DNA from: Verrucomicrobiota bacterium
Lineage (GTDB): Bacteria > Verrucomicrobiota > Verrucomicrobiia > Chthoniobacterales > UBA6821
Assembly: GCA_021413925.1 (NCBI GenBank)
Contig: JAIOPL010000026.1
Coordinates: 1-64,000, forward strand
DNA length: 64,000 bases
Direction of reading: 5' to 3'
The notes under the pieces were generated by a model. It saw only the letters and a program-made list of their open reading frames with translations. It was not told where the DNA came from and made no database searches. This document shows positions 127 through 63,273 of the stretch, piece after piece (position 1 is the first letter of the stretch; each line of letters opens with the position of its first letter). The translations under genes and the position numbers were made by a program.

Positions 127-262
127 AAGGCGCAGAGGCGCGGAGAAAAATTGAAGTTGAGTGAAGACAACTCCGACTGCACTGCTTTCGGTACAAATTT
201 GCTGAGACCAGTAATTGCATTCTCCTCTCAGCGCCCCTGCGCCTCTGCGCGAAATCTTTCCC
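127..262. repeat. Inverted pair of GCAGAGGCGCAGAG-family repeats
   Basis: The left arm (about 127-150) contains GGCGCAGAGGCGCGGAG, and the right arm (about 229-262) contains the opposite-strand form CCCCTGCGCCTCTGCGCGAA. About 80 bases separate them. The same paired layout recurs at 10119-10276 and a single arm at 52859-52887. The rest of bases 1-277 shows no convincing gene: the only reading frame there is short and composition-driven. Confidence 0.7.
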
Positions 263-1501: not shown

Positions 1502-1632
1502 CGGGAAATGTTGAAAGAAAGTGAATGAATATGGAACTCAGAATGCCGAGCCGTGGGAACGACTGGGATAGACTGTCGAAGGCAGCCCAGATAGGGGCGA
1601 GACGAACGGGAGTGAGAGAGTCAAACGCAAAG

Positions 1633-1758
1633 GTTTTTCACAGGGATGAAGGGGATAAAAGGGATGGGGCTAAGTCGTCGTCGAGTCAGTCATCACCTTA
1701 ATCCCCTTGGCTTGCCCGGCCGTTGCTTCGCAGCCGTTACGGATCCCTGTGAGTTCCA
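1633..1758. repeat. Inverted pair of CACAGGGATGAAGGGGAT-family repeats
   Basis: The left arm (1633-1666) reads TTTTTCACAGGGATGAAGGG and continues into GATAAAAGGGATG. The right arm (about 1691-1758) carries the complementary polarity and ends in TTACGGATCCCTGTGAGTTC. It also contains a GGCCGTTGCTTCGCAGCCG stretch that recurs at 4157. The pair fills most of the 259-base gap between argD and ligA. I see no gene in this gap. Confidence 0.75.
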
Positions 1759-4037: not shown

Positions 4038-4194
4038 TGACTCACAGAGATGAAGGGGATGGAAGGGATGCCCATTCTCTCGAAAGCCAGCTTTTGGAGT
4101 CCCACCCAAACTTTTTCGCTGTTTTCTAATTCAATTTTTCGATTCCCCATTTGCAGTGGCCGTTGCTGAGCATCCGTTACGGATCCCTGTGAAT
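4038..4194. repeat. Inverted pair of CACAGGGATGAAGGGGAT-family repeats
   Basis: The left arm (about 4038-4071) reads ACTCACAGAGATGAAGGGGA followed by TGGAAGGGATG. The right arm (about 4155-4194) contains GGCCGTTGCTGAGCATCCG and then TTACGGATCCCTGTGAATC, matching the right arm at 1691-1758. The pair sits between the RNA candidate and the phosphoesterase gene. A long minus-strand reading frame here is judged spurious because it covers repeat DNA. Confidence 0.75.
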
Positions 4195-10118: not shown

Positions 10119-10276
10119 ATCTCCCGCAGAGGCGCAGAGACGCAGAGATAAAAAGACAAAGGGTTAATTCGAAAATTATCCAGATGGTCACCCAAAATCA
10201 GAGAAGTCATTTAAGTATTTAAAAGTTACCATCAACCTAAAAACTCTGCGCCTCTGCCTCTCTGCGCGAGATTTTG
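10119..10276. repeat. Inverted pair of GCAGAGGCGCAGAG-family repeats
   Basis: The left arm (10119-10150) reads CCCGCAGAGGCGCAGAGACG and continues CAGAG. The right arm (10239-10276) reads CTCTGCGCCTCTGCCTCTCT and continues GCGCGAGA. They are separated by about 88 AT-rich bases. The pair fills the 222-base gap between phoH and metH, which run toward each other. A further TTAGGCTGTAGGCTATTAGG stretch lies at about 10086-10105. Confidence 0.75.
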
Positions 10277-52858: not shown

Positions 52859-53058
52859 TATCTCGCGCGGAGGCGCAGAGAGTTTTTGAATTTGGAACTC
52901 AGGAAGACAGGAAACTGAAGAAACTCACAGAGGTGAAGGGGATAAATGGGATCCCGAAAAACAAAACCACAGTAATCTTAGGGCGTAAGATTTTAGGGAA
53001 ATTGGCCATCACTTCTTCCATCCATCTCCTTCATCCCTTGCATCCCTGTGAGTTTTTC
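52859..53058. repeat. Composite repeat block: one GCAGAGG-family arm plus an inverted CACAGGGATG-family pair
   Basis: A single arm of the first family (52859-52887, TCTCGCGCGGAGGCGCAGAG) is followed by an inverted pair of the second: ACTCACAGAGGTGAAGGGGA with TAAATGGGAT at 52920-52952, and CATCTCCTTCATCCCTTGCA with TCCCTGTGAGTTTTT at about 53010-53058. Between the pair is a perfect hairpin AATCTTA-GGGCG-TAAGATT (52974-52992). This fills the gap between the convergent HAD and rlmI-like genes. Confidence 0.75.
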
Positions 53059-62858: not shown

Positions 62859-63273
62859 GTTTTTACAGGGATGAAGGGATTGAAAGAAAGGTGTGGAAGA
62901 AGTTGCTGCCACGCAGAACCTCGGTGCCGTTCTCCTTGGTCTCACTCTTGCAAGTGAGCTTGCAAAGTGATTCCAGAGGCAATCTGCTTTGTGTTGCAGA
63001 GCACATGCCGGCTGGATCAGTCAACCTCAAGATCAGCCCTTATACCATTTACGCGATTAGTCTGGTGGAATTTGCGAAGGAATTTTGGTGATGGGCTAGG
63101 CGGAAGACCGAGGGCTATCTGAAGATAACCCGAGGGATGACAACAACGCCCATCGCCGAAAGACCCAGCTGATTCTGCCGGAATAAGAGTGGAGATGGTA
63201 TTAGATCGCCCTCGGGAATAAGGACTCGGTGGTTAACATCCCTTTTATCCCCTTCATCCCTGTAAAACTTCTA
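62859..63273. repeat. Distant inverted pair of CACAGGGATG-family repeats around a 345-base core
   Basis: GTTTTTACAGGGATGAAGGG and ATTGAAAG at about 62859-62890 are mirrored by AACATCCCTTTTATCCCCTT and CATCCCTGTAAAACTT at about 63236-63273. The core has no gene I can support. It contains a strong hairpin at 62942-62970 made of TCACT, TTGCAAG, loop TGAG, CTTGCAA and AGTGA, with one bulged base. Confidence 0.7.

Follow-up and report, generated by a model that had tools for sequence, protein, structure and literature searches.

Paired 9-mer repeats of a Verrucomicrobiota bacterium probably form a large family of small mobile elements and share their arms with GxxExxY nuclease genes

Short intergenic repeats that are dispersed as inverted pairs with a short spacer are best known from the REPIN/RAYT systems (PMC3116915), in which one dedicated gene lies near its cognate repeats, repeat and enzyme co-diversify, and a genome carries several repeat families, each with a gene of its own. 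The repeats described here share all of these traits. However, their likely enzyme belongs to the PD-(D/E)XK superfamily, whereas that of REPINs is a Y1/HUH transposase, their arms are tandem 8-10-mers and not REP hairpins, and their gene lies inside the arm pair. Since both enzyme and repeats are unrelated to those of RAYT/REPIN, the present system is not a member of that class but analogous to it in logic. BIME/REP sequences are likewise short, paired and extragenic, but the arms studied here lack the REP hairpin and have no Y1 partner nearby. The closest described architecture is that of Geobacter metallireducens, for which PMC2700814 describes paired tandem 7-8-mers on opposite strands at variable distance, sorted into classes 1-3 and interpreted as global-regulator or IHF/HU sites; further multicopy repeat families are known from G. 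bemidjiensis (PMC2996986). Judged by that published description, the arms analysed here (three 9-mers, convergent) are arranged in the same way, with tandem units of 7-9 nt facing each other from the two strands over a spacer of changing length. Class 2 (TCTCCGTS) resembles the CACGGAG-type arms and class 3 (MTYCTGA) the B-type arms discussed below, and no GxxExxY gene is named together with these sites in the relevant passages of the paper.

The first-pass annotation of the window (the whole stretch of 64,000 nucleotides that was analysed) had listed a repeat in opposed pairs at four loci, and in all four the arms were present at the coordinates given there (Table 1). A dispersed arm was confirmed, and its description can be refined: the arm, hereafter the A arm, is no unique sequence but consists of three tandem 9-mers with a free ninth base, TCACAGGGAT-N-AAGGGGAT-N-AAAGGGAT-N. 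An 18-mer search allowing at most three mismatches gave 6 matches in the window, where shuffled sequence leads one to expect 0.07. The right arms at 1691 and 4155 do share a GGCCGTTGCT...GGATCCCTGTGA block, as reported; it represents an A arm broken after its first unit by a palindromic element of about 34 bp (CCGTAACGGCTGCGAAGCAACGGCCGGGCAAGCC). The same element also breaks C-type (L029, L174) and B-type (L028) arms and was found in a non-A arm in L170; as a guess, the position after the first unit may be a preferred break point in arms. The intergenic position of the four loci holds by gene ends, but for the copies elsewhere in the genome a start-codon-blind ORF screen did not settle every case. 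The C-type arms of the two window pairs at 129-251 and 10123-10268 read CGCAGAGGCGCAGAG and have the architecture of the A family. Among Rfam families only a tRNA matched the window, and no GxxExxY gene lies inside it.

Table 1. Paired-repeat features of the window, with positions counted from its first nucleotide.
Feature	Position	Strand	Remarks
Locus 1, left A arm	1638..1666	+	three 9-mer units
Locus 1, right A arm	1692..1752	-	interrupted; unit 1 at 1743-1752, inner units at 1692-1708
34-bp palindromic element	1709..1742	-	between units 1 and 2 of the locus 1 right arm
Outer remnant of a B-type arm, ATGGAACTCAG	1531..1541	+	counterpart TGAGTTCCAT at 1750-1759; B-type pair here in G012 and G002
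Locus 2, left A arm	4042..4070	+	
Locus 2, right arm	4158..4192	-	unit 1 at 4183-4192; shorter copy of the inserted element at 4158-4182; inner units decayed
Locus 3, left A arm	52925..52952	+	just outside: B-type arm 52894-52913, C-type arm 52863-52880
Locus 3, right A arm	53024..53051	-	
Locus 4, left A arm	62863..62888	+	
Locus 4, right A arm	63238..63265	-	
165-bp repeat with ATACCAT ends	63039..63204	.	unrelated; nested in the locus 4 core
Convergent C-type pair (GGCGCAGAGGCGCGGAG)	129..251	.	same architecture; absent from the first-pass annotation
Second convergent C-type pair (CCCGCAGAGGCGCAGAG)	10123..10268	.	

The host is represented by a 2.4-Mb draft genome, and some of its relatives in the genus are MAGs labelled Spartobacteria or Chthoniobacterales; all genome-wide counts rest on pattern searches and on fetched stretches. 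The genome-wide scan for arms proposed earlier, run with the 18-mer and at most two mismatches, returned 72 matches, while the reversed control pattern returned none. The fetched stretches of the genome contain 81 A arms, of which 50 form convergent pairs; where neighbouring A arms were less than 700 bp apart, they were oriented +- in 25 cases, -- in 4, ++ in 2 and -+ in 1 (25/32 convergent). Arms are thus not mostly unpaired or placed at random, and the idea of a paired element survives; as MAG contigs are short, some arms that lack a partner may come from pairs split by a contig end. The cores of the 25 convergent pairs measured 19-485 bp, mostly 19-158 bp. The long core of locus 4 owes its length to an unrelated repeat of 165 bp nested within it.

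The two A arms of a pair were no more alike than A arms of different pairs, which speaks against compensatory pairing and indicates that what is conserved is the arm consensus and not base pairing between the two arms. That the pairs fold as hairpins follows from the fit of both arms to a single consensus. With regard to a left/right polarity of the arms, the third units of the two arms differed beyond expectation in G000; relatives and other phyla did not repeat this difference, and no polarity is claimed. Replication slippage or template switching at low-complexity 9-mers, with hairpin-primed copying and no dedicated enzyme, would be in keeping with the simple units, which are sometimes expanded (one A arm, L032 958-1055 in G000:C7, has grown to about 11 tandem 9-mer units), and with the absence of target-site duplications reported below. 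We consider this origin very improbable, as it is at odds with the convergent order of the neighbours, with arms that are no more alike within than between pairs, and with the strong enclosure of one gene family.

When the 25 cores were compared all against all, a single substantial match emerged, linking locus 4 to an element of a different contig. These two and a copy in the sister genome G006 have arms and core in common, with boundaries at the arm tips, showing that at least one core has been copied and that arm-to-arm units do get copied. Target-site duplications, for which the first-pass annotation had suggested looking, were not detected: flanking direct repeats of the 25 pairs did not exceed those of shuffles, and no intermediate was observed either. 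The earlier view of a non-autonomous mobile or structural element holds in kind, but its MITE- or BIME-like label does not, since there is no target-site duplication, most cores are unrelated and the arms are not REPs. A pairs resemble MITEs in being short, gene-less, intergenic and dispersed and in having inverted paired ends, and the locus 4 core that recurs in other copies would also suit MITEs of the classical kind, dependent on a DDE insertion sequence. That they are such MITEs is nevertheless extremely unlikely given the missing duplications, cores that are unrelated save for this kind of small subfamily, and the failure to find a DDE transposase inside the A arms of the examined loci. 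The gene found between the same ends as the gene-less pairs, the place of the autonomous relative in a MITE family, codes for a GxxExxY nuclease. Most gene-less cores bear no relation to one another or to the gene-bearing element, so that they cannot be simple derivatives of it by internal deletion.

Sister species were examined at nine orthologous sites, and A-pair sites were found to be filled, empty or core-swapped among them. Empty sites, which the first-pass annotation had proposed to look for in relatives, do occur, and its view that the pairing is no coincidence agrees with real, dispersed pairs that are polymorphic between sister species. G000 and G012 have the element at L138:7055-7175, which G002, G009 and G001 lack; G001 also lacks the one at 2805-2915. 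The site at 2165-2275 holds A arms with a different core in G002 and TTCACAGGCTGTGAA alone in G009. At locus 1 of the window, G012 and G002 hold a pair of the B family (ATGGAACTCAGGAA...) instead, the outermost bases of which still frame the A element in G000, and at locus 3 the relatives have a C-type pair. A further copy of the 2165-2275 site of L138 was seen in G006 (L171), where the element and the first 60 bp or so of the next gene are near-identical to G000 while the wider flanks are 72-80% identical; this patch looks like a short transferred or converted stretch.

The sister-species data also bear on whether the arms are operators or architectural sites, that is, sites for a regulator or an IHF/HU-like protein, bound by GxxExxY or another protein without any movement. 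The same architecture was so interpreted in PMC2700814, and intergenic arms whose consensus is kept without pairing covariation would be compatible with protein binding. Purely regulatory sites are, however, hard to reconcile with gain, loss and core swapping of sites between close relatives and with a core copied arm to arm into other places. Considering in addition that the pair encloses the GxxExxY gene itself in genome after genome, and that the conserved nuclease for which this gene codes shows no variation at any catalytic position (see below), we regard the operator interpretation as improbable. The four pairs of the window are members of a large family of small DNA elements, probably mobile, with inverted ends of 9-letter repeats.

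The likely autonomous partner of the gene-less A pairs lies on another contig and was therefore not visible in the window: the A pair at C23:45181-45676 encloses one intact ORF, which codes for a GxxExxY protein (TIGR04256, 135.4 bits, cut-off 35; PF13366, PDDEXK_3, 137.3 bits, cut-off 22). The host genome has three GxxExxY genes, the second of which is located between D-type arms (ACCATGAAGAGCATGGAG...) and the third of which is truncated and located between C-type arms, the right one being interrupted. Among 102 proteins the G, E and Y of GxxExxY, the D, E and K of D-ExK and one tyrosine were invariant, which argues for an active site under selection. The PD-(D/E)XK fold is assigned by Pfam (PF13366); a sequence search of solved structures returned no convincing PDB homologue, an AlphaFold model built from three alignment rows reached a pLDDT of 47, too low for use, and PADLOC reported a weak Cas4-like similarity. 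GxxExxY genes were present in 105 of the 195 sampled Verrucomicrobiota genomes and in 44 of 48 Geobacteraceae genomes. Relatives were found on plasmids (eight records), and none was found on the viral contigs and phages searched, so that a viral or phage origin of the nuclease was set aside. In G009 the A-type GxxExxY element lies in pieces on two contigs (L166, L168), with unrelated sequence following the left arm, and may have been interrupted by an insertion.

To quantify enclosure, the 260 bp preceding the domain were scored for inverted repeats with the 290 bp following it, with a threshold of at least 28. The sample comprised the relatives, the 195 Verrucomicrobiota genomes and seven genomes reached via A-arm contigs named as other groups; from each genome it takes the genes with the highest scores, and close relatives of the same genus do not count as independent. 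Sixty-eight of the 80 full-length GxxExxY genes scored at least 28, compared with 11 of 1369 random placements drawn with the same geometry from the same loci. A replicate in Geobacteraceae gave 28/29, and when Verrucomicrobiota, Geobacteraceae and Acidobacteriota were pooled, 96 of 109 full-length genes lay in convergent arms, the remaining 13 having no clear arms, while only 2 of 153 neighbouring control genes (100-400 aa, same loci) were enclosed. Among the eight plasmid genes, which come from other groups, three were enclosed (Sphingomonas, Bacteroides and Bernardetia) and five were not. The enclosing arms belong to many families, including CACAGAG, CACGGAG, CGCAAAG, CACGAAA, CACGAAT and ACAGGAT, with a tandem period of 9 in 86 of 166 arms, of 8 in 45 and of 10 in 24; a few high-scoring repeats (e.g. 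L253 and L259) were palindromes of another kind, and the tree described below omits them. That arms enclose almost every GxxExxY gene tested suggests that this nuclease is the enzyme on which the elements depend.

Arm sequence and protein phylogeny were coupled. Protein identity correlated with arm similarity (Mantel r 0.52; highest value of 2000 permutations 0.15), and in a maximum-likelihood tree of 65 proteins, which is based on a short alignment (116 columns) and has many unresolved forks, the six A-arm proteins (three from Spartobacteria, one from Geomonas and two from Acidobacteriota MAGs) formed one group (99/92) with a single other member, L222, the arms of which are CGCGGATT. The four B-arm proteins (100/99) and six of the eight C-arm proteins (100/94) likewise grouped together. 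Genomes with an A-arm gene also carried dispersed A arms: 97 in Geomonas paludis, 49 in SS_bin_40 and 23 in LA_ACB_2, the latter two counts including the arms that enclose the gene. Within the genus, where genomes were sorted by hand, A-arm counts were 7-68 when an A-type gene was seen, intact or broken, and 0-16 elsewhere (p 0.003). In line with these data, GxxExxY is very likely the cognate gene of the arms.

The coupling would also be expected if the gene were a fixed passenger, since tight linkage alone would produce it; the arms would then be moved by another enzyme encoded elsewhere, and the nuclease could serve, for example, in defence or repair, as might be hinted by the PADLOC similarity and by the frequent presence of PD-(D/E)XK domains in proteins of defence systems. 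We consider such a passenger role unlikely: elements of 500-650 bp leave no room for another ORF, the arms around the gene represent many families, across three phyla, and no other candidate enzyme was found. A Y1 transposase of the RAYT type was considered as partner and rejected, as the genome has a single Y1_Tnp match with no A arm within the surrounding 4 kb.

The reading that we prefer, and hold to be reasonably likely, is that these are short mobile elements with a PD-(D/E)XK nuclease cognate to their arms, and that the gene-less pairs are non-autonomous and are cut and moved in trans. From sequence we infer arm binding, cleavage and its site, and transposition or mobilisation in trans. 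The gene-bearing element would be the minimal mobile unit, consisting of the arms and one GxxExxY nuclease gene. The nuclease would recognise arms of the sequence typical of its own clade and cut within them or at their edge, perhaps where the first unit meets the second, and the cut would lead to repair or copying by which the arm-to-arm segment is excised, copied, moved or exchanged. Action of the nuclease in trans on gene-less pairs would explain why the arms are all that is conserved; insertion without target-site duplication combined with frequent core replacement would have the same outcome. We also lean, somewhat less firmly, towards GxxExxY being the sole enzyme of an unrecognised class of mobile elements that spans phyla and has dozens of gene-less derivatives per genome.

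This pairing of enzyme and element matches no known family compared here. In the open-access literature we found no paper linking GxxExxY to paired arms, though an earlier description may exist elsewhere; the A-arm string and the CACAGAG, CACGGAG and CGCAAAG arm strings were not found there, and papers naming GxxExxY, PF13366 or TIGR04256 were, by title, not on repeats. If GxxExxY serves the arms that enclose it, one nuclease family without assigned function and many intergenic repeat families would be explained together, including the short repeats that occur in pairs in Verrucomicrobiota, Geobacteraceae and Acidobacteriota, and the system would be an independently evolved counterpart of RAYT/REPIN; if the protein does not act on the arms, the repeats lose their standing as a wholly new kind. 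The coupling of arm and protein would offer a direct read-out of recognition specificity, and with an enzyme of about 125 aa and a candidate substrate of 27 bp the system is small enough for in vitro testing.

Several other repeats were observed alongside the paired elements. A stretch of about 110 bp adjoining locus 1 (window 1515-1627) has several copies of about 80% identity in G002, G001 and G015 and represents a further repeat family. In the single Y1 transposase-like gene that the genome has (L009 1393-2658), the long frame runs through proline-rich repeats that short DNA repeats encode. The 165-bp repeat with inverted ATACCAT ends, which accounts for the length of locus 4, is present in G006 in more than 10 copies with 91-98% identity (L315-L323), the fetched copies being without A arms, and this degree of identity indicates that it was probably active recently.
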